The translations under genes were made by a program, and so were the position numbers. Source: Craspedostauros australis (lineage: Eukaryota; Bacillariophyta; Bacillariophyceae; Mastogloiales; Achnanthaceae). From it: a DNA stretch of 64,000 nucleotides. Of the stretch, positions 4,472 to 51,286 are shown piece after piece (the first letter of the stretch is position 1; each line of letters begins with the position of its first letter). Under the pieces are notes generated by a model. It saw nothing but the letters and a program-made list of their open reading frames with translations, did no database searches and had not been told where the DNA came from. The stretch covers positions 496,001-560,000 of the forward strand of contig JAMXDE010000040.1 in assembly GCA_026770025.1 (NCBI GenBank), read 5' to 3'.

Positions 4472-5462
4472 CTGCTAATAGAGCTAAACTAGTAACTACC
4501 TTAGTGAGAGACACTACGAACCATCCAACTCATCGGCAATCCAGTAGATCGAATGCAAGCCTCATCCACACCCACGTTTGGGGACCAATCCAGATCATTG
4601 AAGCAGATCTTTGGGACCCATGTCAAGGAAACAGAAGGGTTCCAATATGTTGGCAAGTTCCGTGATTGGTAACCTACGATTGTGGAAGGTGGTGTTGGTT
4701 GATAGTCGTTCATTTGCTATTTCATTACTTGGCTACTCCAATCCTCTTGGTGTACACCAGTTCTCTTGCCCAATGCTCTTGGTGCTTCAATCTGTTTTGT
4801 AGATTTGGTCTCCAGCTATGAGTCAGTGTGCAAGATGCTCTCTTGCTGCTCTTCGTATTCTCTCTCTCTTTCTGTCTCAGCATCATGTACTTCGTGCCAT
4901 ACGATACTCCGTGTTCAATGCGTACTCTGCATTTGACACTCCGTTCATTCAGTACTGGCTCCTACTCCATGAGTACTTACCATTTGAAGTTCATCTTCAG
5001 TATCCATGATGCTGATACCTTTCGGTCATCGGATCTTTGCCTCCTGCTCTGACTTGGAGACAGATGTCGACATGATGACATGATGACATCCTGTCAACGT
5101 CAGTAGGCGTCCTTCTGCTCTCCAGATGTCACGTTCCATTGGTGATGCAGTGGCCTGTCAGATGATATCGTCATCTGAGGTTTAGTTGGGAAGTACCTCG
5201 AGATTCTCTTGGTACCATTGATGGATGGACGGATGATATTTCCAATTCTCTCAGAAATCGTCGGTTGCAAATTTCCTCCAGAAGTCTTGCTCCTTTTCGT
5301 GTGTTCCATTCCCACTGTAATTCTGATGAATCACAGCCTACTATCGACACGAATGTAGTTATACCGTCCAAGTGCGTATGAGAGAATAACGGGTGAACGA
5401 TGCACATATACACGTACATCTCGACATATACTCACATGTACATCTCGACATTTGTGTTTGTC

Positions 5463-20587: not shown

Positions 20588-23500
20588 ATGATCGTCCTTC
20601 CGAAGCACCGCAGCGCAGTCATGGCGCTCCTCCTCCTTGGGGCTTCGCAAACCAGCCCGTCGTGCGCTTTTGTGCCAGCCATTCCAACGAGATCGACCAC
20701 CAGGTCCGCCTTTGCGCCTGCCACCGACCTGGGTGGCTTTGTGCCGCGGATCTCCGCCCTCTCGGCGCGCAACGCACCGATGCGCAGCTTCAAGGCAACG
20801 CAACTGCGCATGTCATCGGTGGACTTTGACAATTCCAAGTACACCGAGGCGGCCTGGTCGACCATCACGGCGCTCTCCAAGGCTGCCGATTACTACCAGA
20901 CCTCCACCATCGAGGCACCGATCATCTTGGATGTCATCTTGAATCCGTCCAAGCATGGCTCCAGCGACGATGCCGACAGCGCCAAGCGAGCTGCCGAGCA
21001 GGTCTTTGGAAACGCCGGTGCGGACACCAAGAAGCTGCGTCAGGAGTTGGAAAACTACCTCTCCAAGCAGCCCAAGATTTCCACGCCGTCGGACCAAAAG
21101 GCGATGGGACGCAGCATGCAGCAGGTCCTCGAATCTGCTCGTGCTGGCATGTCCCTGTTGGGGGTGAGTAGCTTGTCAATGTGCTGCATGAACTTGCAAT
21201 TGGGCACAGTGTGGCATGGTATGGAACGGCATGGTCCGAGCTCTGCTGGCATCAGATGCATAGCCATCATTGTCTGCGCAATGTGTTTCATGGAATGCAT
21301 TCACATCCACAATCGCATTCATACCGACGATCAACTTGTGCTCCTACAGAGATTGCACTTGGTCCATACTCGCACGTATTGGTGCTCTGCAGAAAAAAAA
21401 TGAACTCAGGCGACTCACATTTCCGCATTGTTTGACACTCCCCGCTCCCACAAACCAAACCGCATCAACACTGGCGACGCTCAATACGCAATGCACAATG
21501 CCAACATGTGCAACAATCAACACCGCCACTTTCCGATAAAATACAGGATTCCTTCATTTCCACAGAGGGAATCATATTGGGCCTGACGAAAGAGGACGAT
21601 AAGTTCACGCGGGATGCGCTCCTGAAGCAGGGAATCAATTATGCCGACATCTTGAAGTCCGTCAAGGAGATTCGGGACAAGAACGGCCCTGTCATTTCGC
21701 GCGGCGCGGAGAACATGTACGACGCCCTGCTCAAGTACGGCATCGACTTCACGGAACGCGCTGAGCAAGGCAAGCTCGATCCCGTCATCGGCCGCGACGA
21801 TGAGATCCGACGTGCCATCCAGATCCTCAGCCGCAGAACGAAGAACAATCCGGTCCTCATCGGAGATCCTGGAGTCGGAAAGACGGCCATCGCCGAAGGC
21901 ATCGCGCAGCGCATGGTGGCGGGCGATGTTCCCGACTCGCTCCAGAATTGCCGCCTCATCGGTCTTGATCTTGCCGCGCTCGTGGCGGGAGCCAGCATGA
22001 GAGGTGAATTCGAGGAGCGTCTCAAGGCTGTCTTGGAAGAGGTCACGAACAGCAACGGCGAAATCATCCTCTTCATTGACGAGATGCACACTGTCGTCGG
22101 TGCTGGGGTACGTACCATCGTCGTCGCTCTGCATCTCACTGTACTCTTGTGTGTGTGTATGTGTGTGCGTATTGGACGCGTGTACCATCAGTTGGCTTCA
22201 ACTCCGCAATGCAATACGACGCAAATCACGGCGTACTCACCACTTTGCATCATTCATTCTGATTGCCGCACAATTGCATGCACGTGTTCAATTCTTGTAA
22301 ATCCCACCCGTCATATCAAATCAAATGATTGCTTTGCTAAACAGGCCGCCCAAGGATCGATGGATGCCAGCAACTTGCTCAAGCCTGCCTTGGCACGTGG
22401 TCAGCTCCGTTGCATTGGCGCGACAACCATCAACGAGTACCGCCAGTACATCGAAAAGGATAAGGCCCTGGAACGTCGATTCCAGCAGGTTATGATCGAA
22501 CAGCCAAGCCCCGAGGACACCGTCAGCATCCTCCGAGGATTGAAATCTCGCTACGAGACCCACCATGGAGTCCGCATTCGCGATGAAGCGCTTCTGGCCG
22601 CCGCCAAGCTGAGCCACAGATACATCCCGGACCGGTACGTTCTCTTGTTGCTGTGTTTGTGCGATGTCTGAATTTCAAGATCGGAGAATCATATCCGTCT
22701 TGGTCAGAAGCCAGAACGGACCAGGTGAAAGTGGAGATACGTATTCTCCATGATGCCCTACCAATTGCGATGGAATGCACGAGCCAGTCAGCTCGTCAGC
22801 GATCAATGTACATTCTTCGTGTCTCACACCATTCTATCCACAAAAACACAACTCTACATTGCGTCGCATTGTATTTCATGTTCCTCACTCGACTCGTATT
22901 TTACGTCGCGCAGGTTCCTTCCTGACAAGGCAATTGATCTGGTGGATGAGGCATGCGCCAAGCTGAAGAATGAGCTGACGTCCAAGCCAACCATGCTTGA
23001 TGAAATTGACAGGCGCGTCATCCAACTGGAAATGGAACGTCTCTCCTTACGTTCGGATATGGAAGGAGAAGAGAATGCGGATTCCAAGGAGGCCAAGGCA
23101 GAAGGCGAGCGCATCGATAAGCTCGACCGAGAGCTCGAAGACCTGAAGCAGCAACAGGCCGACCTGAACACGAGATGGATGGCGGAGAAGGGTGGCGTGG
23201 ATCGTCTCAAGTCGCTCAAGGAAGAAATTGCAGCCATCAAGTTGGAGATCGAAAAATCAGAGCGCGAATTCGACCTCAACAAGGCTGCGGAATTGAAGTA
23301 CTCTCAACTCCCCAATCTCGAGAAGCAGCTCGCTGCCTTGGAGGAAACATCCGACGAGGGCGAAGCCAACAACAACGGCGAACGCATGCTTCGTGATGAA
23401 GTCGTCGCAGACGACATCGCCAACGTGGTCGCCGTCTGGACAGGCATTCCGCCGGGCAAGCTGCTGGAAACGGAACGTGACCGAATCCTCCACATGGATG

Positions 23501-24702
23501 ACAAGATTCGGGAACGCGTCATCGGCCAGGACAACGCCATCCAAGTCGTCACGGAGGCAGTCCAGCGTTCCAGAGCAGGGCTGAACGACCCGACAAAGCC
23601 AATCGCCTCGTTCATCTTCCTCGGACCCACGGGCGTTGGAAAGACGGAGCTGTGCAAGGCACTTAGCGAGTTCATGTTCGATTCGGAGGATGCTCTGATC
23701 CGCATCGACATGAGCGAGTATATGGAGAAGCACACTGTGTCAAGATTGCTCGGCGCACCTCCAGGTTACGTGGGGTACGACGAGGGTGGCCAACTGACGG
23801 ATGCCGTGCGTCGCAAGCCATACTCCGTCCTGCTGTTCGACGAGATGGAGAAGGCGCATCCTGATGGTACGTTGCAGAACGTGTAGATGCACATGCACAT
23901 GCGCATGCACAAACATTCTCAGGCATCTGTGAAAGTGATGACTGCGAATGCGAACACATCCGGATTTGCATTGGTTTCCCCTTGACTTCTTGCGTGAAGC
24001 CGCAGATTTGCTTCTTCGCATGCACCAGGTCCTCGTTGTACTCACGCGCTTGCTTCTACTCTTCCACCTTCGTGTTCGTTCACATTCCTGCAAATTCCTG
24101 TTTGCTGTGTTTCTGCAGTCTTCAATGTCATGCTCCAGATGCTTGACGACGGCCGACTGACCGACAGTAAGGGCAACAGCGTCAATTTCAGGAACACCAT
24201 CTGCATCTTCACCAGCAACATTGGAAGCCAGGACATTCTCGACCTCAACGGTTCCGACGAATCGGGATCCCAGGAGATCATGCGCCAACGTGTCACGGAC
24301 GCGATGCGACAGAACTTCAAGCCAGAATTCTTGAACCGCATCGACGAGCACGTCATCTTCAACAGCCTCGGGAAGGAGAATTTGCGAGAGATTGTCAAGC
24401 TCGAAGTTCGAAGACTCGTGGATCGTCTTGCCGATCGTCAGATGGCCATGACTGTTACCAACGCTGCGCTTGACTTCCTGACGGATGTTGGCTTCGATCC
24501 AGTGTACGGTGCCAGACCATTGAAGCGCACCATCCAAAGAGAGCTGGAGACAGTCGTGGCACGTGGCATCTTGAGCGGCGACTTCAGTGATGGGGATACC
24601 ATCCTCGTCGATGTTGCCAATGAACGGATCTCTGTGCGCAAAGGGCCACCCGTCATCGATGTCCAGCCTATCCCAACAGGCCAGCCATCGACATTCGGCT
24701 AA
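20588..24702 (+). CDS. CLPB: Plastid-targeted ClpB/Hsp100 disaggregase
   Basis: Five exons (20588-21163, 21547-22107, 22345-22634, 22914-23866, 24119-24702) join in frame to 987 residues. ClpB is a hexameric AAA+ unfoldase that resolubilises aggregates with Hsp70. Domains: N-domain (about 80-230), NBD1 with Walker A GDPGVGKT (298-305) and Walker B IILFIDE (365-371), and a long coiled-coil M-domain (about 506-621) that marks ClpB rather than ClpC. NBD2 follows with Walker A GPTGVGKT (713-720) and [13 protein letters not shown]. The N-terminus has a hydrophobic signal peptide ending in SPSCAFVP and then a Ser/Thr/Arg-rich, acid-poor stretch. This is the bipartite presequence of red secondary plastids with Phe at the cleavage site. 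The last two exons are split at HPD|V. Confidence 0.95.
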
Positions 24703-25016: not shown

Positions 25017-28000
25017 CTATGTCCTCTTTCTCGACCTCGGCTTGGCTGTCGCCTTCTTCGCACCAGCGGCCTTCCCTCTCTTCTTCTTTGGCTTGAACTT
25101 GGCCTGCAACTTCTTCAAATCCTCCTCCTCGTCCACATCTGATTCGTCATCGCCTCCATCTTCGTCGATTGCGTCCAGGTCTGCCGGGTCGCGTTCCTTC
25201 TTGGATCCACCCCGTCTCGTCTTCTTGTCTCTGATCTGCTCCTCTATCAGTGCCTGACTTCTGTGGCTGCCTTGATTGTACTCGCGTGTGAGCGCTGCCT
25301 TGTGCTTGGATTCGATGTTCGCAAATGCTGGCGTCTTTTCGCCAAGACGAAACTCGTCAAATTTCTCCATCACATCCTCCTTGCTGAGGCCGTAGGCATC
25401 CATCAGTTCGATCGCCTGCTGGTTGGCATTGGGTTGCTGAGATTTGAGCATGGCCATGAACCGGTCGCGGAAGACCGGGAGGTAGTTCTGTCGTAGCTGC
25501 GCTGATCCGCCATGGATCTTATAGTTCATGTGGTATTGCAGCTCCTCCAGCAGGCGCTGCTTCTTGCCCTTCGTGGAATTCTTGCCCATCCAGGCCGTGA
25601 ATTCTGGGAATCCCGGCAGCATGCCGCCGTTCTGCCCACCAGCATGGTAGCCAGTCTTGACGGTCATCGTGGCGGAGAATGGAAGCAGACCCCAATTCTG
25701 ATCACCGCCACGCACGGCCTGTTCGGCGAGAGCATAATCGGACAGACTTTCGGCAGCCTTGTGCATAGTTTCCAGGTATTCCAGTTCCTTGCTGTCGTCG
25801 CCTGATCTCTTCACTTGGCTGTATGGTCCGACCATGACCTTGAGGTAATTCTGCTGCACGAGCAGTCCCACGATGTTGTAATCAACGAAAAATGCATCCG
25901 TGCGACGAAACAGATTGTCCACTGCCGCCTTTGGAGTGGCGCCATGCAGACCTCGCCTGCCCTCCAGGACTGTCTTGGCGGCATCAAACAGGCTGACGCG
26001 AAGAATTTCATCCTTGTTGATCGAGCTCTGTCTCTCCTTGAGGCCTTTGTAGGTCAGCGATCGTTGTCCGTCCCGTTTGTTGGCCCACATCTGCAGGCAA
26101 TTGATGACCTGCCGCACATCGTTGCCACAGGACTCCGCGATGGCTTCAGCCGCATTGCGCTCCACCTCCAAGCCTTCCATCTTGGCGATGCGCATGGCGC
26201 GCATGGCCATCGTGGATTTGATGGGACGTCGGAACCGCAGATCCATGCAGTACGGCACTAAGGATTTCATTTTCTGGCTCTGCCTGTCGTTGCAAATGCA
26301 GATGATAGGGACCTTGCTCTTCTTGATCATCTGGATCAGTTCAGCCATTCCACTTCGATCGCCCGCTCCCATTCCATCCACTTCGTCCATGATGATGCAG
26401 CGGAGCTTCTTTTGGTTTCTGCCACGTCCATGGCCATATCCTGATGGTTTCTGGAAGTTGAGAGTTTGAGAACCTGTGATGTCACCCAGCGTCGTCTGCA
26501 GTGCCTTCTTGGATCGTGCGTCCGACGCATTGAATTCCAAAAGATCGCGGCCAGCCTCTTGCGCAACCAGCGTGGCGGTCGTCGTTTCTGCATCAGTGAC
26601 AGTCAGTACAATGTGTTGGTATCCATCATGGTCGTTCGATGATACGCATAGATATGTGAAGGATCCGAATAATAAGTGGAGTGGAGTAGAGTGGTGTAGT
26701 GCCATGGCATGGCATGGCGCAATAGTGCGAATCGGTGTGAGTGAAGCCGTCTGTAAATGAACCAATTGAAGCAGCGGCCGAATGACTCTCGAGTGCACCA
26801 ACGACCCAATCACGCCACGTCACGGCAACGAAAACAACACCGCATCAACAACGAACATGATGTCAATGGCAATCGCATCGACAGTGATAGAAACGGACTT
26901 ACTTCCAATTCCGGGTGGCCCAGACAAGAGCGCAGCCTTCCAAGGACCTCTTGGGTTGGAGAACGTCTTGCCAGATGCCTTGGGGTTGTTGAAGGTCCTT
27001 TCCCATGTCGTGAGCCAGGCTCTGAGCTTTTTGATGTGCTCGGAGTTGCCAATGATCTCATTGGTGCCTTTGGGTGCATGCTTGTCCACCCAGAGCTCGG
27101 CCGATCTGTCGTCGCTCTTTCCAGATGTTCGTGCTGCTGCTGATGATGATGATGTCGTCGTTGTTGAGGATGCAGTTGTTGCGAGTGAGTTGGATGCCAC
27201 CGTCGACGCGGCTGTGCCTTGCGATGACTCTGCTTCCAATGATTTCTGACGCCTTGCTGCGTACGGGTTAGACACAGCCGCTGCAGACGCCGACTTCGCG
27301 TACGGGTTGGTCGCGGCTGATTTCTTTGCGTATGGATTTACCTTGGCGGAAGACCCGGTCGCTCGCTTCGCATATGGATTGGAAGGCACGGATGACGTGG
27401 ATTGCACTGATGGCTGTCGTTTCAACGCAGAACTTGAGACAGCAGCGGCAGCAGTAGAAGACGACAACGATGGTGCTGTTGTTGAGGTTGAGATCCCCTT
27501 TGCTCGCATGGCCTTCTTTTGGTATTGGTCGCAGATGCCGTAGAGCTGCTTGTCACCTTTGGCAATCTTGACCGTGCCCAACTCTGTGGCCTTCCTGAAC
27601 TTGGACCCTTCCGTGTAGGGACGACCATCTTCGAGCACTTCTCCAGCGATCAGGTATGAAGTCTTGGAAGACACCCCGGTGGTGACACGGCCACCCAAGG
27701 TCTTCACGATGTCCATCGCCTCTTCTCTGGATAGCTCGTCCATCACTCCCGTGAAGACAAAGGTGAGACCATCCAGACATTGCGGGACCACGCAGGAATC
27801 GACGTCGAAGGTGTCAAGCTCCAATGTCGGCTCCAACACCTCCACTTTCGAAGAATTCTGCTTCCTCGTCGTCGGCTTGACAACTCTTCGCTTTGCTGTC
27901 GTTGCCGCTGCTGTTGATGATGCTGTTGGTTGGGATTTACTCGGTCTTTTCGTTGGCTTGGTGCCAGTGTCGTTATCGATCTCCACCACTTCCACATCCC

Positions 28001-28502
28001 CCAAGCCTCTCTTAGGGTTGGATCGTGCGGACGCATCTTTCTTAGTGCTCCTAGTGCTATAAGTACGACTGCCGGTGCCCGCATTCCTCGCATCCTTCCT
28101 ATCTGCACGCGTTGTCTGGTAGCGACGATCGTCTTCGGACACTTCAGTGACAGGACTGTCGTCCTGTTTGGGCTTCTTTGCTGCCTTTGGTGCCGAAGTT
28201 GGCGATGTCTGGGCTTTGCCTGTGACAGTAGTTGGCGCATCATCAATCACTCGCTTCTTCTTCGCCTTTACCTCGGAGTTGGCATTTGCATTTGTGTTGG
28301 CCGTGGCACTGGTGCTGTCGCTGTTGCCGGATTGATGGCGATTGCTGTTGGATGCAGATTTTGCCTCCGACCTCGTTTTTGGCGCTTTTGAGGCACCTGC
28401 CTTCGTTGATGGCGATGATGAAGATGATGATGCCTTTGCTTTGCCGCTGGGGCTGGCGCCATCTTTCTTCTGCGTGGCCTTGAAGAAGTTGCGGATGTCC
28501 AT
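25017..28502 (-). CDS. RFC1: Replication factor C large subunit (clamp loader)
   Basis: Two exons (28502-26903 and 26587-25017) join to 1,056 residues. RFC1 is the large subunit of the pentameric loader that opens PCNA and places it on primer-template junctions. It begins with the PCNA-binding motif MDIRNFF. A long Ser/Thr/Lys-rich disordered region follows, then a BRCT domain (about 241-325; GLTFVFTGVMDELSREEA, GGRVTTGVSSKTSYLI). Four degenerate NPYAK repeats follow, and then the AAA+ core with Walker A GPPGIGKT (528-535) and Walker B RCIIMDEVDGM. The intron splits the Walker A Lys codon. The C-terminal RFC1 domain ends in a Lys/Arg-rich nuclear localisation tail. The length is near that of animal RFC1 (about 1,150). 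Confidence 0.95.
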
Positions 28503-29059
28503 GGTGCAGTGAATAGTATTATGGACAGAAGGTGCAGCTGCTGACACGAAGTGCGACAAGTGTACCTGCCCAGAACTCTCGATTGAGGGATCAGCGGACG
28601 GATTGGTTGAAGCGATGTGTGGCGGGTTGGAGGATCCGCATTGTGTGCTTGTTGTTGGTGGCAACGACGATGGTGGTCGTGTTGGTTGGTTACCCACAAT
28701 GCTCCCTGCACCAAAGATCGTTGTCGGGTGATCCTTGCGAGGCGTCGCGTTGTGTGGCGGTTGCGCGCACCAGCTCATTTGTGCGTATTTTTGCCAACAT
28801 CAACAGCGTTTCGACTCATTCGATTAAAACAACCAAACGAGAACATGTTCCACAACGCGGAACAACACGCTCAGCAACACGAAGGGGAGGGAACAAGCGG
28901 CTTCTTGAATCGTATCGCGTTGCGCCCATCCTCCTCGATACCAACACATTCGGTTCCTCCCACCAATCCATCATTCCAAACCACTCGTATTCGTACCCTC
29001 CACAAGACGTAGCAACATATTGCAACACCGCAACGACGAAACGACGAAACGAGGCAACA
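28503..29059. promoter_or_regulatory. Divergent promoter region, RFC1 and TMEM128-like
   Basis: This 557-bp interval separates two head-to-head start codons. I looked for E2F-type boxes because RFC1 is an S-phase gene and found none with the full core. Confidence 0.45.
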
Positions 29060-41931: not shown

Positions 41932-43080
41932 TCAAGAAAGGAAGAAATCTATTGGAGGATCATCTTTCCACAGCCCCACCTTCCGCGCTCGATCCGGTTT
42001 GGAGCATCCCGTCCCACAGTAGTTGTTGTGCAGCACGACGAGATCCTTGCCCAGCGTGCCTTCGTTCAATGAAGCTTCATCGAGATCCAAGAGCACCCTA
42101 CCGACGGGGAACTCTGTCTTATCCAACAACCGATGCGTGATGGTGTCGTTCATCCGCCGGACGATGTTGTTGAACGTCTTCTGGTTGTACTTGGCCTTGA
42201 CCTGCTTCTCCATGAAGGTCCTCCATCTCTGAATGCAGCTCACAGAGGCGGGAGTCGGTCGCATTGCCAGCAATCCGGCGTTGTACGGTCCCGACCAGTC
42301 GTTCATGGCATCGGCAGCCCAGAAGTCATACTCACCCGTAAAGTACGGGCGAGGATCCTTCGCGATGATCGTGTCCAGATCCATGAACAGCACGTACATG
42401 GGGTCTGCGCTGTTCCAGGTCGCATCGTCATGGGGCGTGGTGGTGCCCGCGGCATCCTCAAGCTCCAGCAGCAGGATGGAAGGACGCCGGCTCATCATGT
42501 GGCGGAATCGCGCTTGATCGGAATACGTGAATCGTCCGTTGCCTGTGATCTTGGTGTTGTTGAACTTGGAACCAACCTCCCACGCTTTCTTGACGTCGAT
42601 CAGTCTCGAGGTGTGGTACTTTTCGTACAGCGGGACATCCTCCGCATACAGGACGACCTCGGCATGCCGCAAAGGAGGGCAGGCATTGGAGGTGTCACCA
42701 TTGTATTCACCATTGCCATCCTCTTTTGTGCCTGCAGCTTGCCTTCTTGGTCCCAGCTGATGCGGTTGCCGCCGTTGTTCTGGCGTGGCCGGACAAAGTC
42801 CCGCCTTGATGCAATGGTAGTACCAATTCAGAAAGTCGTTCTCGTATCCCAGATTGCCGGTCAGGACGATGCGCCATCGGATATTCGGATTGGCGCATCT
42901 CTCATCCGACTCCCTTGGCTGCTGCTGCTGCCCCTCAAGCGATGAGAACAAGTCGCTCGACTTCATCGTCACTGAGAAAGTGAAGTATTGGAAAGTCACG
43001 ATGAAGAATGTCGGCAGTAGCATGCTCAGCACAACGCTGCATCCTTTCTGCGACTTCTTGGGCCGTTGCCGTTGCATCAT
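41932..43080 (-). CDS. Type II membrane glycosyltransferase (DxD, GT77-like)
   Basis: This single-exon gene encodes 382 residues from the ATG at 43080. A short basic cytosolic tail (MMQRQRPKKS) precedes one membrane anchor (about 15-35), typical of Golgi glycosyltransferases. The lumenal part holds the nucleotide-sugar and metal site in VLFMDLDTIIAKDP (DLD at 234-236). It is followed by YDFWAADAMNDWSGPYNAGLLAMRPT, the pattern of nucleotide-diphospho-sugar transferases of the GT77-like group (given here as two overlapping parts: YDFWAADAMNDW and PYNAGLLAMRP). A late Cys pair lies in NYCGTGC. The donor sugar and acceptor cannot be read from sequence. Its start faces the TrmH gene across the inserted element. 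Confidence 0.78.
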   Translation of the reverse strand: MMQRQRPKKSQKGCSVVLSMLLPTFFIVTFQYFTFSVTMKSSDLFSSLEGQQQQPRESDERCANPNIRWRIVLTGNLGYENDFLNWYYHCIKAGLCPATPEQRRQPHQLGPRRQAAGTKEDGNGEYNGDTSNACPPLRHAEVVLYAEDVPLYEKYHTSRLIDVKKAWEVGSKFNNTKITGNGRFTYSDQARFRHMMSRRPSILLLELEDAAGTTTPHDDATWNSADPMYVLFMDLDTIIAKDPRPYFTGEYDFWAADAMNDWSGPYNAGLLAMRPTPASVSCIQRWRTFMEKQVKAKYNQKTFNNIVRRMNDTITHRLLDKTEFPVGRVLLDLDEASLNEGTLGKDLVVLHNNYCGTGCSKPDRARKVGLWKDDPPIDFFLS

Positions 43081-43626
43081 GCTGCCGTTGCGACGTTCTG
43101 CGCAGTGTACTATGTATAGTAGCACAGTGGAGGCTCTACTCCACTATACCTCTTGTGCGTGTTGGTATTCGTACAACAACAAGGTTTGTTGGCGCGAATT
43201 TCAATGGGATTGCTTGCTGCAGAGTGCCCTCGAGTGTTCTTGGTTGTTGTTTGTTGATTCTTGGTTGGTCAATACGATACTACTGAATTCTCACTACTTC
43301 TGGATGCTCAGTTTGGATGATCGCTATTCTTCAGCGTGCTCGTCATTCCTCATCTTCTTGCCTTCGTCTTTCTGCCTTCAGCTTCTGCTTCGTCGGTCTT
43401 TGGTGTTGTCTCTCTCTTGGTTCTTGGTGGTTGGTACACGACGAGTGGGTCTGTCGTGAAGTTCCTTCTTGGCTTGTTTGGGATGAAAGGACGTTCGCTC
43501 AACTCTGTTCTACCTTGGTTGCAGATTTGTGACCTTGTCGAATCCTGTGTTAGAAGTTGAGTCACGAATTAAGACAAACCAAAGAACAACAACCAATCAG
43601 TGACAACGTCACACAAGAAAGAAGCA
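43081..43626. promoter_or_regulatory. Upstream region of the glycosyltransferase gene
   Basis: These 546 bp run from the glycosyltransferase start to the left target duplication of the foldback element. No gene is seen. Before the insertion this sequence and 45919-46150 would have been one divergent promoter of about 780 bp. Confidence 0.5.
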
Positions 43627-43636
43627 GAAGAAGAAC
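43627..43636 (+). repeat. Target site duplication, left
   Basis: GAAGAAGAAC stands directly before the element terminus GAGGAAATTC. The identical 10-mer follows the right terminus at 45909-45918. Confidence 0.85.
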
Positions 43637-44020
43637 GAGGAAATTCATTAACCAGCCCTTTTGAAGTGCCGATTTGCATCAACCAGCCTGTTTTGTGTTT
43701 CTTAGCGACCCAAAACGTCCAAATGTCCATACGACGTCCCGTGGACACAAAATCTCACATCGACTCGCAAGTTTAGGTATAAATGTAGACTACCTGCACT
43801 ACACACGAAAAGTATAAGCCACATCATACATGTTTAGCATAATCGCCCTAGAATGCAATCAAATAGTCCATTAAAATTTAATGCATCTAGTAAAAGGAAT
43901 AAGTGCCTACCTTAGTTGTAGATGTGTACATCATCCATCTGTTTGCTCCAATTCCTTGAGATGCGGATCGTATTCTGACGACACGTTCAATGGAAAGGAC
44001 AAAAATATTACATTCTAACA
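43637..44020 (+). repeat. Left terminal inverted repeat
   Basis: It starts GAGGAAATTCATTAACCAGC and includes TTGAAGTGCCGATTTGCATC, GCCACATCAT and TTAGTTGTAGATGTGTACAT. Each of these has an inverted counterpart in the right arm. Small indels separate the two arms around 43830-43920. Confidence 0.8.
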
Positions 44021-44054
44021 AGCTAAGAGCATGGAGAGCATTCCAATGGGTATA

Positions 44055-45490
44055 TTATTAGCTTGTGGGTATCTAAATCCATCTGGAAGAGATGCTGGCA
44101 TCCAAATCTGTGAATCGTGTGATACTGTGTGGTGCGCATCGCGCTGTACAGTCTTCTGCATATCTATGCATTCGGCAGGCCATTTTGAGAGATCCGATCA
44201 GCCACATCACTCCAAGAACACTCGAAAGAGTAAGGACATGAAGTTTGAAGTCTTTGATCCATCAGGAAGGGATCCAATTCTATGGATGCTGATATCACGC
44301 GGTTCTGAACAGTACGCGTCACGCTGTACAGCGTTCTGAGAATATGTGCATAGACATTGGCGGTCATATTCAACTCCAACACTTTGGTGAATCCGAACGC
44401 ATTCCACAGAGCACAGACATGGGGTTTGAAGCCATGAATCCTCCAGGAAGACATATCGGTATGCACCCAGGTGATCCACATGTCATGACGCCGCTCAGTG
44501 ACACTCCACTTCAGCATCCGTAGAAATGGACCCCTTCCAAACGGATATGGGACTTCAACCTCCATGGCCACAGCCTTCGGAGTCTACTTGACGCAACGCG
44601 GTTGGTCGGATCTCTCAAGCCAGCCGGCCGAATGAATATATCCGCAGAAGGCTGCACAGCACAATGCGCATCGTAAAGCCCCCTCCCAAACAGCGTCACC
44701 AGATATCCTTATCCCCAGCTTTGGATCGCTTCCAGATGGATCCAATACTTCAAACTTCATGGCCGTACCCATTGGAGTGCGGTCAGAGTCATCCAAGCAT
44801 TGGATTACACTATGGCCAGCATTTTATATGCACGTATTCTCAGAACGCCATACAGCATGGCGCGGACGGTTCAGTACAGAGTGACATCAGCATCCATAGA
44901 TTGCGATCCCTTCCAAACGGATAAAGAACTTCAAACTTCATTTCATACTCTTTGGCGTATGATTGGTGTGGTCGGAGCGTTGGATTGGAATACGATTGCC
45001 AGTTCCTATGTACAACCATCCAAATTAATGTACAGCGCGATGCGTACCAATCACTACTGTGTGATATCTGCATCCATAGAATTGGATCCGTTCCTGATGG
45101 ATCAAAGACTTCAAAATTCATGTCCGTACTCTCTGGAGCATGATTGGAGTAGTGAGGTTGGTTGGACCTCTCAAAACGGCCTGCCGAATGCATAGATATG
45201 CGGAGTAGAGTACAGCGCCATGCGTACCGCACAGTATCACAAGATTCATAGATTTGGGTGCCAGCACTCCTTCCAGAAGGACCCAGATCCTCGCAAGCCA
45301 CCCCCATACCCATAGAAGCGCTGTTGCTATGATGGCATTGGTGGAATGGTATATGTTGAGTCTTTCATATGAAGGTTTGGTCAACACCCTGCACACCGCA
45401 CACAGCCACCGTGCGGTATCCCGTGATTTGGCCGCGTACAATCCGCAACACCTTCTAGATGGATCCAGTCACTCACAAGCTAAATGAATA
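44055..45490. repeat. Internal ~180-bp repeat units in both orientations
   Basis: A unit with landmark TTTGAAGTC or TTTGAAGCC followed by GATCCATCAGGAAGG recurs on the plus strand at about 44243 and 44424. The same landmark is inverted (ACTTCAA) at about 44552, 44747, 44928 and 45108. Spacing is 180-196 bp. Each unit also carries a GCTGTACAG-type segment and a GGATGCTGATATCAC-type segment. Units differ from each other by many substitutions, so the array is not recent. Confidence 0.75.
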
Positions 45491-45519
45491 CTCACTGGAA
45501 TGCCTTCGATGCGCTGATT

Positions 45520-45908
45520 TTGTTAAACTGTACTATTTTTGTTCTTTGCAATGAAGATGTCGTCAGAATACAATCCACAACGCAAGAAATTGGAGCAAAC
45601 AGATGGATGATGTACATATCTACAACTAAAGTAGTCACGTATCCCCCTCATTGGATGGTGTACATTCGTGTGGACTATACTGGCAATATGAAGATGATGA
45701 TGAACATGTATAATATGATGTGGCTTGAACTTTTCCTGTGTGGTACAGGTAGTCTATATTTATACACTAACCATGGCAGTCGATGCGAAATCCCTGTGTC
45801 CATGGGATGTCGCATGGACAATTGGACGTTTTGTGCCACTAAGTGTTGTAAAAACAGGCTGGTTGATGCAAATCGGCACTTCAAAAGGGCTGGTTAATGA
45901 ATTTCCTC
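45520..45908 (-). repeat. Right terminal inverted repeat
   Basis: Read on the minus strand from 45908 it gives GAGGAAATTCATTAACCAGC and then TTGAAGTGCCGATTTGCATC, the same order as the left arm. It continues through GCCACATCAT and TTAGTTGTAGATATGTACAT. Confidence 0.8.
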
Positions 45909-45918
45909 GAAGAAGAAC
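45909..45918 (+). repeat. Target site duplication, right
   Basis: GAAGAAGAAC directly follows the terminal CCTC of the element and matches the left copy at 43627-43636 without mismatch. Confidence 0.85.
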
Positions 45919-46150
45919 AAACAACCCATCAACCCATCAACCCATCGGCGCGTCGGCGCATGGTGACTGATGCCAATGATGCTGGATTGCAATACCCCAA
46001 GCAAACGAGATTGATCATTCATTCCACGGTGACTCGCATCGAACGTTCAAGAAACGTCGAAGATCTGCAAACAAGCCACTATTCCGGACAAAGACAACAG
46101 CAGAGACAACAGCAGAGACCACCGCAAAGACCAAGACAACAGTGCATGCG

Positions 46151-47287
46151 ATGAAAGACCGAGTGCTTCCGACGATGTTGATCATCATGATGAACGGGAG
46201 GAGGTTGATATCTGCTTTCTCCCCCGCAGCCAGGTCGGCACTGCCAAAGGCGTGGCTGTCGTGTGAATATGCGTGCGGTGGTGCCAGCACGAGGCTCTAC
46301 AACACATCCAAACCCAAGGCACGCCAACGCCGCAAGATCACGAAGGAGATCAAAGAATCGGAGGCGATCTCAGCCCCCACGTTGGAATGGGAGACGTTCG
46401 ATTTCAGCACATCCCCCAAATGGGACAAGCGATTCGAGGATGGCATCCACCTCGCATCGAGCCACGGCGATTGGAAGGAGATCGAGAAGCACGAGACGCA
46501 GCAAGACAAGGCATTGCACGACAGGTTCGCCAAGACGCACAGCGCGTGGGATGGTCTCGACATGCAGCTCGTGCAACGCGCCATCGACGTGCTGCGTCCC
46601 TTCATCAGCGACGAACGGTGGGAGCGCGTGGACTCCATATTGCGGCAGCGCACATCGAACGTGAAGTTCCTGTTTGAGAATCCATCGAACCCTTCCAACG
46701 TGTGGGCCTGCCTGAGGACGCTGGACTCGTTCGGCATCCAGGATGTGGACGTCGTGATTCAGAGCGGCATGTTCAAAGGCAAGGCGGCGTTGTCGCAGAA
46801 GCGCGGCATGCGCACGGCGATGGGATCGGCCCAATGGCTGACGCTGAAGAACCACCTGTCCATCGAGAACGCGCTGGAGGTGTCGAGAGAGGAGTACCAC
46901 ATCATCTGCACGGACGTGAATCCGAGTTCGAAGGACATCCGGGAGGTCGATTGGGATGCGTCCGGCAAGAAGATCTGCATCGTGATGGGGAACGAGGACC
47001 GCGGCGTTTCCGACGAGGCCAAGGCCATGGCGGATGAATACATCTACCTGCCCATGTCCGGCTTTGCCGAGTCCTTTAACTTGGGCGCCGCCACCGCCAT
47101 CACTTGCGCGCATCTATCGGCGGCGAGCAACAAGGACGGGCAAGGGCCGTTGCGACCCGGCGATCTGACGGAACGCGAGCACAAGACGTTGCAGCTGAAG
47201 GGCGCGATGAACAGCGTCAACCGCAAGACGGCAAGAGCGTTGTTCAAGAAGGAGGGCGTTGTGTTTCCGAAGGAGATTCCCTTGTAG
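46151..47287 (+). CDS. TrmH/SpoU-family RNA 2'-O-methyltransferase
   Basis: This single-exon gene encodes 378 residues. SPOUT methyltransferases of this group methylate a ribose 2'-OH in tRNA or rRNA using S-adenosylmethionine. The C-terminal half carries the trefoil-knot motifs: VKFLFENPSNPSNVWACLRT (motif 1), ICIVMGNEDRGVSDEA (motif 2) and YLPMSGFAESFNLGAATAIT (motif 3, with the SLN-like FN). A basic C-terminal tail follows. The first ATG in frame is at 46151; the codons before it start with GTG. The N-terminus has a hydrophobic stretch (PTMLIIMM) and then LISAFSPAARSA, which resembles the plastid ASAFAP site, so organelle targeting is likely. The foldback element ends 232 bp upstream. Confidence 0.88.
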   Translation: MKDRVLPTMLIIMMNGRRLISAFSPAARSALPKAWLSCEYACGGASTRLYNTSKPKARQRRKITKEIKESEAISAPTLEWETFDFSTSPKWDKRFEDGIHLASSHGDWKEIEKHETQQDKALHDRFAKTHSAWDGLDMQLVQRAIDVLRPFISDERWERVDSILRQRTSNVKFLFENPSNPSNVWACLRTLDSFGIQDVDVVIQSGMFKGKAALSQKRGMRTAMGSAQWLTLKNHLSIENALEVSREEYHIICTDVNPSSKDIREVDWDASGKKICIVMGNEDRGVSDEAKAMADEYIYLPMSGFAESFNLGAATAITCAHLSAASNKDGQGPLRPGDLTEREHKTLQLKGAMNSVNRKTARALFKKEGVVFPKEIPL

Positions 47288-48349: not shown

Positions 48350-51286
48350 ATGATGTCCTTCAATGAGCTCAAGGAGGATTACGATGCCTTTCTTCGGTCG
48401 GAGGTATGTTCCATTCCAACAGATCGACTGTGCGGGATCTACTTGCGACAACAGTATCAGTATCGGGATCGGAATGAGCTCCGAAGACACGGCGGCTGTT
48501 GTGTGTTGCGTGTTGTTCGTTGGATGACCATGACGATGACGATGCTGGTCATGCAGTCAAGACCTATGGATTGCACTCAGTTGGTGTTCAACGACATTGT
48601 GACATAGCAGTACAGCTCACCAAATCGCCATGTGACCTTGCCTTGCCATTCATTCATCCATTAACTCGTTCACTCATTCAATGGCCACCACCACCGCCGC
48701 CGCAACTGCAGAGATTCAACCACGTGGATAGGATAGCGACGGCGATCGATGACTTTGCGCATTCCTCGAAGGGCAGATCTGTGGCAGGATGGGGCTGTCC
48801 CAGAGTGGAGATTGGCATGTCGGAGCTGCGGTCGAGAGACGGCGGGACACTCAGTCAGAGCTTGAGAATGGACCCTTTGCGTCATCTGCGGGCCCTGGAG
48901 GCGGCATGTCACAGCATCGCATCGGAAGAACGACCGGGATACGACAAGGAAGGTACGTGCAACTTGCTGTAGGTCATCGACTTCTTTCGAGAATGTCAAC
49001 TATTTACGTATGCTTCAGGCGAACTGGATGTGTGAACACACTACAATACCATGGTGCCATCCTGTACCGTATCGTATCGTACAGTTCACGTGTACATGCC
49101 TGCGATGTGCCTGCTCAATGATGGGGCCTTGGAAGTTTTGAGGCATGGGGATCCGCCGTTGACTTCTGTCTCACCGTTCTCGTACAACGAACGGATATCA
49201 ACACATCACGCCACGCCAACACTTTACCACATTGCCATATGTCTACAACTATGTCTTGCACTTCTCCTATCTTTCAGGCACCCGGGTGAAGGTTGCTCTC
49301 TCCGGGCCTGTCGGTGCAGCACCATCCAGCCCACGTGACCTGACCTCCTCGGCTCTCAGACAACTGGTATGTGTGGAGGGCGTCGCCACGAAAGTGTCTG
49401 CCATCAAACCAAAGGTCATCAAATCCGTGCACTACTGTGCCAAAACCAAACAGCATTCCAGCCGGAATTACATCGACGCCACGGACCCGCAGCTTGGCCT
49501 GCAGCAGGTGGACAATGACGGGCGCGAGATGGATCGCATGATCAATATCACAGAAACCGTGTATCCCACGAAGGACAAAGATGGAAACCCGCTCGAAACT
49601 GAATACGGTCTGTCACAGTACAAGGATCACCAGACGATCACGTTGCAGGAGATGCCAGAACGGGCCCCCATGGGCCAGCTTCCAAGGTCGGTGGAGCTCG
49701 TGCTGGATCACGACTTGGTGGACAAAATTAAGCCAGGCGACAGAGTCATGATCGTGGGAGTGTACAGAGCGTTGGCGACTGCCGCCACGCAATCAACATC
49801 GGGAGTGTTCAAGACGGTGGTCCTGGTCAACAACGTCCACATCCTGGGCCGCGACACCACCCGGCTCACATTCTCACCGCAAGATGTGCGAACCATCAAA
49901 GCACTCGGCAAGGAGGACGGCATCCTGTCCATCCTCGGCAGGAGTCTGGCACCATCCATCCATGGCCACGAAATGATCAAGAAGGCGTTGGTACTGCAGC
50001 TACTTTCCGGCTGCGAGAAGAATCTGAAAAACGGCACGCATTTGCGCGGTGACATCAACGTGCTCATGGTTGGCGATCCATCCACGGCGAAGAGCCAGCT
50101 GCTTCGATCCGTCATGATGATCGCGCCTTTAGCCGTCTCCACCACAGGCAAAGGATCCTCTGGTGTCGGTCTCACAGCAGCCGTCACTTCGGACGCAGAG
50201 ACGAGGGAACGCCGTCTGGAGGCCGGTGCCATGGTCCTTGCGGACAGAGGGATTGTATGCGTGGACGAATTCGACAAGATGGGAGAGAATGACAGAGTTG
50301 CCATCCACGAGGCCATGGAGCAGCAGACGGTGACCATCGCGAAGGCGGGCATGCACGCCAGCCTGAATGCCCGATGCTCCGTGCTTGCGGCTGCCAATCC
50401 TGTGTTCGGGCAGTACGACAAGAACAAGCGAGTGCAGGAGAACATCGGCCTGCCGGACTCACTCCTGAGTCGATTCGACCTTCTCTTCATCGTCTTGGAT
50501 CTCGTGGATCCAGAGACAGACAGGATGATTGCCAACCACGTAATTCGCAGCCATCAATACCGACCTGGTCGCGGCGACGACAAGAATGACAGCGATGATG
50601 ACATGGACGACTCCGACGATGAATTCGAGGATGGCGCTCAACGCAACCAATCGATTTGGCAAAAGGGCCGGCTTGCCGGTGATGACAGTCACAGATCATC
50701 CACAGCGCATGACACCCTGCAGCACGATTTCCTGCGGAAGTACCTGCACTTCGCGAAGCGCTTGGAGCCGGAGCTTTCCGAAGAGGCCACGGAGTTCATT
50801 GCCAACGAGTACGCGGAGATGCGATGTCGGCAGGATGAACGCACGTTGCCAGTCACCGCGCGTACGTTGGAGACGGTGATCCGATTGGCGACGGCGCACG
50901 CCAAGCTCCGCCTGAGCCACATCGTGGAACCGACTCCGGATTGCGAGATCGCGATGGAGATCCTCAGCTTCGCCCTGTACAATGCCAACCAAAGTCCGTT
51001 GCCGCAGAGGGAGAAGCCCTCCGCGGAGGTTTCCGACGACGGAGAAGCTTCTGACGCCGAAGCTGAAGAATCGGCACCGAAGCGGCGCAAGGTCGCATCG
51101 AACAGCGCAACAGATGCGGAACTCATCGCGAGAATCAGCCAGGAGCTGGACGACAATGATGGTCAGATGGAGCTGTCAGAACTCTGCAGCGACATCCAAG
51201 ACCGAGACCAGATAGAGCAGATAGTCGAACGGATGGAGCAAGATGATAAAGTGATGGTGAGCGAAGGGACTGTCATGAAGATCTGA
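48350..51286 (+). CDS. MCM3: DNA replication licensing factor MCM3
   Basis: Three exons (48350-48403, 48712-48952, 49278-51286) join in frame to 767 residues. Donors are GTATGT and GTACGT and both acceptors are CAG. MCM3 is one of six subunits of the replicative helicase. MCM3-specific stretches include VCVEGVATKVSAIKPKVIKS, HYCAKTK, NPLETEYGLSQYKDHQ and MPERAPMGQLPRSVE. The AAA+ core has Walker A GDPSTAKS (364-371), the segment GKGSSGVGLTAAVTSDAETR, Walker B GIVCVDEFDKM, and the arginine finger in LPDSLLSRFDLLF. An acidic insertion (NDSDDDMDDSDDEFEDG) precedes the winged-helix C-terminus. The first exon encodes only 18 residues. Length agrees with animal MCM3 (about 808). Confidence 0.95.

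Follow-up and report, generated by a model that had tools for sequence, protein, structure and literature searches.

A foldback Mutator-like transposon family with transposase-bearing relatives in an ochrophyte genome

What is a 2,272-bp unit with mirrored ends and an interior of satellite-like repeats, and which enzyme could have moved it? An earlier note had singled out such a unit in a 64-kb window (the whole stretch of DNA analysed here). We conclude, with a probability of about 95%, that it belongs to the Mutator (MULE) superfamily of DNA transposons, as a non-autonomous member built on a foldback plan. The family is new but its kind is not: tandem-repeat foldback MULEs have been described before (Tm1, Muta1 and probably Tetris), and the note's word 'unusual' for the architecture was therefore too strong. 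The host is an ochrophyte, probably a diatom, and its genome holds a nearly complete foldback MULE system: copies that are non-autonomous, relatives that combine matching ends with an intact transposase frame, and sites that are empty.

Architecture and setting of the window element

The element is bounded by a perfect 10-bp duplication, GAAGAAGAAC, which is read at both edges of the 2,272-bp unit, as the earlier note had it (Table 1). Its inverted ends, also reported there, are indeed identical: the perfect terminal inverted match within the element is 58 bp, and a repeat search returned an inverted terminal pair of 59 nt at 100% (43636-43694 / 45851-45909) that reaches one base into each duplication. 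Within the left terminal core, CANNAACCAG occurs twice, at element positions 10 and 41. The inverted similarity, which had been put at about 390 bp, is present and longer than that: the arms form a single BLAST alignment of 461 bp at 78.5%, with additional inverted units beyond it.

Table 1 Features of the window element and of the two adjoining open frames (window positions)
Feature	Position	Strand	Basis
Left target site duplication copy, 10 bp, GAAGAAGAAC	43627..43636	.	read directly
Right target site duplication copy, GAAGAAGAAC	45909..45918	.	read directly
Non-autonomous foldback Mutator-like element, subfamily A, 2,272 bp	43637..45908	.	
Left terminal core, 58 bp identical to opposite end, putative transposase-binding region	43637..43694	+	
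Right terminal core, inverted, same as left over 58 bp	45851..45908	-	
Left arm, long imperfect inverted repeat (461-bp alignment, 78.5%)	43637..44089	+	
Right arm, long imperfect inverted repeat	45452..45908	-	
Satellite-like units, + orientation: partial 43966-44053; 44077-44253; 44257-44433	43966..44433	+	unit profile
Axis of unit orientation flip	44434..44490	.	unit profile
Satellite-like units, - orientation: partial 44491-44546; 44551-44741; 44747-44922; 44928-45102; 45106-45281; 45304-45464; partial 45488-45582	44491..45582	-	unit profile
Neighbouring open frame, nucleotide-diphospho-sugar transferase domain (PF03407), outside element	41932..43125	-	
Neighbouring open frame, SpoU rRNA methylase domain (PF00588), outside element	46142..47287	+	

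The interior consists, as first described, of inverted satellite-like units, which the unit profile detects on the + and then on the - strand; in the element copies that were self-aligned, repeats are spaced 181 and 195-196 bp apart or at multiples (376, 361). Its long inverted arms, built partly of tandem repeats, place the element among foldback-type (FB-like) MULEs. A Pack-MULE would carry a captured fragment of a host gene; in the window copy almost all of the sequence falls into arms and array units.

The window copy has no convincing or conserved reading frame, in line with the first description. Its longest stop-to-stop stretch is 174 aa, a length reached by 9 of 200 approximate dinucleotide shuffles (the null used for each copy), and the longest stretches in three related copies are 91 (177/200), 147 (L043; 11/200) and 95 aa (136/200). 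Two of these four values lie close to the top of the shuffle distribution; frame length is not conserved among the four copies. A search with the transposase protein described below gave no match on the window's contig, C38. The window copy, being without a transposase of its own, is classed as non-autonomous.

The two flanking frames are divergent, and the window copy sits between them, probably in their common upstream region. Ordinary eukaryotic genes surround the element, among them open frames with MCM (49232-51286), RFC1/BRCT (25017-28778) and Clp-type AAA (21508-23886) domains. A dispersed repeat at window positions 4648-5402 has further copies in L003, L024 and L028 and inside element L042, and another element, L010, is inserted into one of its copies.

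Dispersed copies, target sites and empty sites

We searched the genome (74.8 Mb, 90 contigs) with the terminal 21-mer, allowing at most 2 mismatches. It occurs 106 times and a reversed control pattern not at all, so the matches are not due to chance; the outcome that would have counted against the note, arms confined to this locus, was not what we saw. Among 100 listed places, 32 convergent neighbour pairs lie within 15 kb of each other and 36 ends are unpaired. The 32 pairs, only part of which were inspected, delimit elements of 1,661 to 13,926 bp. A query made of the element's initial 200 bp brought up 113 candidates, 40 of which are scored matches.

Perfect duplications of 9-10 bp flank 23 of the 29 copies examined, namely those with both ends inside one fetched stretch (about nine single-end loci, such as L013, L023, L028, L033, L034, L036 to L041 and L050, are left out of the duplication counts), and they fall within the 9-11 bp expected of MULE target site duplications. 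The 22 that were tabulated are all different (9 bp, n = 15; 10 bp, n = 7; A+T 70%), bearing out the predicted copies with the same ends and differing flanks; the 23rd is that of L021, TTTTAGATC. Duplications of hAT and P elements are 8 bp. The six copies without a perfect duplication are L011, L012, L018, L020, L026 and L051: L011 and L012 belong to the putative composite described below, L018 and L026 have an imperfect one, the left end of L020 is mismatched, and L051, whose left edge is altered, lies in a duplicated region, since its flanks are 97-99.7% identical to those of L043. The copies fall into subfamilies A to D; pairwise identity among seven full-length A copies is 94.3-97.0% (21 pairs).

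Empty sites were sought by joining the flanks of 20 elements through one duplication copy, and 17 of these queries were searched. Among the best 40 of 103 and 40 of 90 candidates scored, paralogous places spanning the empty junction were found for six elements (L014, L019, L035, L042, L049 and L052) and for the other 11 there was none. The seven aligned empty places of the six elements are identical at 87-99 of 100 positions over ±50 bp, and each has one duplication copy, that of L042 with one of nine bases changed. The least clean is that of L019, where the duplication, GTTGTTGTT, adjoins a short length difference. The search for the window copy returned just its own two flanks, which are single-copy and so offer no paralogous empty site. 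A paralogous L010 site lacks the element and also lacks the duplicated bases, and is therefore unclean as an empty site, and L017 lies inside a tandem repeat or minisatellite of about 40 bp (period judged by eye), of which neighbouring units are nearly identical and without the element.

A satellite or inverted duplication made by local rearrangement, with no transposon involved, would suit an interior of tandem and inverted satellite-like units, but it is refuted by the empty sites and has next to no chance given also the dispersed copies with the same boundaries and distinct duplications, the absence of unit-profile matches (E ≤ 1e-3) in the 64-kb window outside the element's + and - unit stretches, and the location of the 40 unit matches scored of 111 candidates (26 enclosed by the two ends of a listed pair, 7 adjacent to just one listed end and 7 elsewhere). 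The last seven comprise three equally spaced inverted pairs and one place on C64, and none of the 40 scored places is a long unit array without element ends, although rare arrays of that sort may lie among the remaining candidates. The three inverted pairs, each 2,896 bp across with no listed terminal 21-mer nearby (C77:10150-13045, C29:7136-10031 and C9:73036-75931), may represent an additional subfamily whose ends are different.

Several long copies owe their length to nested inserts. L010 (9.5 kb), considered as an autonomous parent, is an A-type copy with a nested insert of about 7.2 kb. The ends of this insert are repeated and it contains a stop-to-stop frame of 1,912 aa; it is probably a retrotransposon. 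L052 (7.2 kb) is a C-type copy with an insert of about 5.1 kb some 20 bp inside its left end. Inserts of about 2.7 kb lengthen the A-type copies L011 and L012 (4,980 bp), and one of about 3.6 kb lengthens the A-type copy L016 (5,903 bp). Two 4,980-bp copies, 99.96% identical and in the same orientation, bracket about 24 kb (C59:320282-352393, with L012 and L013; C70:1-29268, with L011). Their outer flanks carry a common 10-bp duplication, GAAATCGTGT, and their inner flanks are unmatched. C59 terminates within the second copy, and C70 overlaps it, with 251 of 251 bases identical mid-way and 98.3% at the very start. This arrangement looks like a composite moved as a unit or a recombination product; a misassembly is possible.

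Transposase-bearing relatives and known systems

Two longer copies, L027 (7,106 bp) and L026 (4,762 bp), have the same ends as the window element, with a perfect 9-bp duplication in L027 and an imperfect one in L026. Both contain a 662-codon open stretch, the translations of which match PF10551 (MULE; about 3e-10) and PF00872 (Transposase_mut; 2.7e-06), both above the curated cut-off, and SWIM at 4e-04 (above the cut-off) and 8e-04 (just below it). The translation also shows a CCHC-like cluster near its C-terminus. No FLYWCH match was found in L026 or L027 at E ≤ 1, and the N-terminal finger of Phantom transposases (Tm1, Muta1) is thus not seen here. By these domain matches, relatives with the same ends encode a MULE-type transposase. 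The term 'Mutator-like', which the earlier note had used, is upheld by PF10551 and PF00872, and is domain-supported rather than a guess from duplication length, because the same-ended relatives carry the Pfam MULE domain. A foldback element of another superfamily (for example of P type, as in Galileo), MULE-like just in duplication length, is conceivable in that foldback architecture occurs in several superfamilies and the Galileo transposase is described as P-type (PMC3573991), but the MULE domain in same-ended relatives and the 9-10-bp duplications make it very improbable.

The transposase protein has 12 genomic matches: five full-length ones at ≥96% identity, among them one with a stop; two more at 62-64%, also full-length, of which one contains two stops; and five that are partial. 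All six pairs among the four intact frames (L026, L027, L035 and L036) have a dN/dS of 0.121-0.184; the transposase was thus under purifying selection until recently. The similarity of L026 and L027 to the window element is confined to parts, at 73.6-79.4%, and neither stands out as its exact parent. Between the frame and the right end, the array of L027 comprises 4.3 and 14.5 units of opposite orientation, and that of L035 5.3 and 8.5; both arrays are detected with the window's own unit profile. About 3.4 kb at the right of L035 matches none of the sequences compared.

A second transposase lineage is present. The C5 transposase, which has a MULE domain, is 64% identical to the first lineage, and the C12 transposase 62%. 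Both are flanked by D-type ends, GAGCAAATTCACTAACCAGG, in which the two motifs have the same 31-bp spacing. The C5 end aligns over 158 bp with one arm of each of the four non-autonomous D copies compared, at 88-90%, and reaches about 75% with the opposite arm. It has no match in the A and C copies compared (the window copy, L027, L043 and L035) and only short ones in the B copy L022. The interior units of D resemble both transposase lineages about equally. The arm matches suggest that D elements belong to the C5 lineage. In a locus of the second lineage, L041 (G000:C5:1944500-1951500), a unit array lies upstream of the frame, in the first ~600 bp of the locus, whereas it lies downstream in L027.

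Several known systems resemble this family in part. Tm1 of root-knot nematodes is described as a Mutator/Foldback family with composite inverted ends that contain internal repeats, 9-bp duplications, and transposase-bearing and non-autonomous members with common ends; as described, its repeats are about 14 bp, its end motifs are asymmetric and 7 bp long, and its transposase is of Phantom type with FLYWCH (PMC3169594). In contrast, the present family has units of about 180-196 bp, ends mirrored over about 58 bp, and a SWIM match with no FLYWCH match. Tetris of Drosophila virilis is reported as a foldback element with tandem units of about 220 bp in each arm, 8-10-bp duplications and no coding capacity, for which its authors suggest the Mutator superfamily; according to the same account, no transposase-bearing relative was found and the units form long satellite-like arrays (PMC4079207). 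The present family has such a relative, and its units formed no free array at any of the 40 scored places. Muta1 of Aedes aegypti, presented as a MULE of the type-2 foldback class whose tandem repeats are subterminal and whose non-autonomous derivatives are numerous, differs by its 12-bp repeats, 145-bp ends and FLYWCH finger, and its excision was measured in yeast (PMC5225508).

In Rehavkus and aphid Phantom elements, as tabulated, a minisatellite lies between the transposase frame and the 3′ inverted repeat, an arrangement also seen in L027 and L035; Rehavkus is listed with a PHD finger and Phantom with none, FLYWCH or SWIM, both mainly from animals (PMC6446971), whereas the array of the present family flips orientation within the element. 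The MULE-Diatoms group 37 shares stramenopile hosts, a SWIM finger and a single frame, but its entry gives no duplication or indicates none, and inverted repeats of 123-124 bp (PMC6446971, Table 1); by that tabulated description the present family, with duplications of 9-10 bp and a 461-bp arm alignment, stands apart from it. In a search of openly licensed papers for foldback transposons of diatoms, no paper returned deals with such an element, judged by title and the opening of the abstract.

Terminal cores and the repeat array

The two ends of a copy agree closely over the terminal core and much less beyond it. In 26 of 28 copies the first 58 positions show 0-2 end-to-end differences (the exceptions are L051, with 6, and L052, with 26 and a nested insert), and in 26 of 28 copies positions 59-260 diverge by 15-37% between the two ends (54% in L035 and 68% in L052). 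The CANNAACCAG motif is found at positions 10 and 41, 31 bp apart, in 55 of 58 ends.

Core differences between subfamilies are mirrored at both ends in 18 of 18 cases for A versus D, 4 of 4 for A versus C and 4 of 5 for A versus B (L051 and L052 are excluded). Beyond the core, at positions 59-260, subfamilies A, B and C differ from one another mostly without mirroring (A versus B: 59 unmirrored differences against 6 mirrored). Against D, roughly half of the differences in this stretch recur at both ends (55 mirrored and 64 unmirrored for A versus D; 67 and 53 for transposase-bearing A versus D), and the contrast between the core and the adjacent stretch is therefore weaker for D.

Matching cores may be kept by strong selection or by end-to-end copying, both of which are possible. 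All six private core variants in subfamilies A to D (two of which represent one change common to the near-identical L011 and L012) are one-sided, favouring selection for matching ends. L026 and L027 differ at position 35 at both ends, and this mirrored change favours end-to-end copying. We tentatively suggest, as a reading that we hold to be less likely than not, that the two ends evolve as a unit, with the core of about 58 bp being copied from end to end, for instance by repair off the other end during transposition; changes in recognition would then appear at both ends simultaneously, and two transposase-end specificities, an A/B/C type and a D type, would have split within one genome. Together with the two enzyme-end pairs, the mirrored core provides a natural example of a transposase co-evolving with the sequence it recognizes.

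In the mechanism that we propose, the transposase of the longer relatives would act in trans on the non-autonomous copies. It would recognize the terminal core of about 58 bp through the two CANNAACCAG motifs 31 bp apart, excise the element and reinsert it at a staggered cut of 9-10 bp. A motif of about 32 bp in the Mu inverted repeats is bound by MURA, as cited in PMC3310237.

The inverted units of about 180-196 bp would, most likely, be an array derived from the autonomous parent, the copy number of which has been drifting. Alternatively, they might be functional secondary transposase-binding sites or form a required hairpin, such that the array itself is selected. A unit array was indeed found in all seven copies searched by profile (2/2 transposase-bearing and 5/5 non-autonomous), and a Galileo element is reported to have repeats that contain secondary binding sites (PMC3573991). 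However, AACCAG in the window element is confined to both cores and absent from the units; L027 is longer than L026 by 2,344 bp, or about 12 units if, as appears, array length accounts for the difference; and positions 59-260 have diverged between the ends while the core stayed near-identical, a point weakened by the fact that this stretch falls mostly outside the units. We therefore regard a selected array as unlikely, and favour a drifting array inherited from the autonomous parent. With the enzyme, the ends and the repeat array all in hand, the role of the array is directly testable here, whereas some foldback elements (for example Tetris) have been described without an enzyme.

Our reading of the host as an ochrophyte, in all likelihood a diatom, draws on two gene families elsewhere in the genome. 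The silicon transporter family PF03842 has 88 genome matches, of which 32 are nearly full length and 28 of these 32 are without in-frame stops; silicon transporter counts in diatoms are far lower than 88. The light-harvesting family PF00504 has 61 genome matches, and one of its proteins, compared with the PDB, has four longer LHCI chains of 9vfj as its top matches, followed by an LI818-clade fucoxanthin chlorophyll a/c protein.
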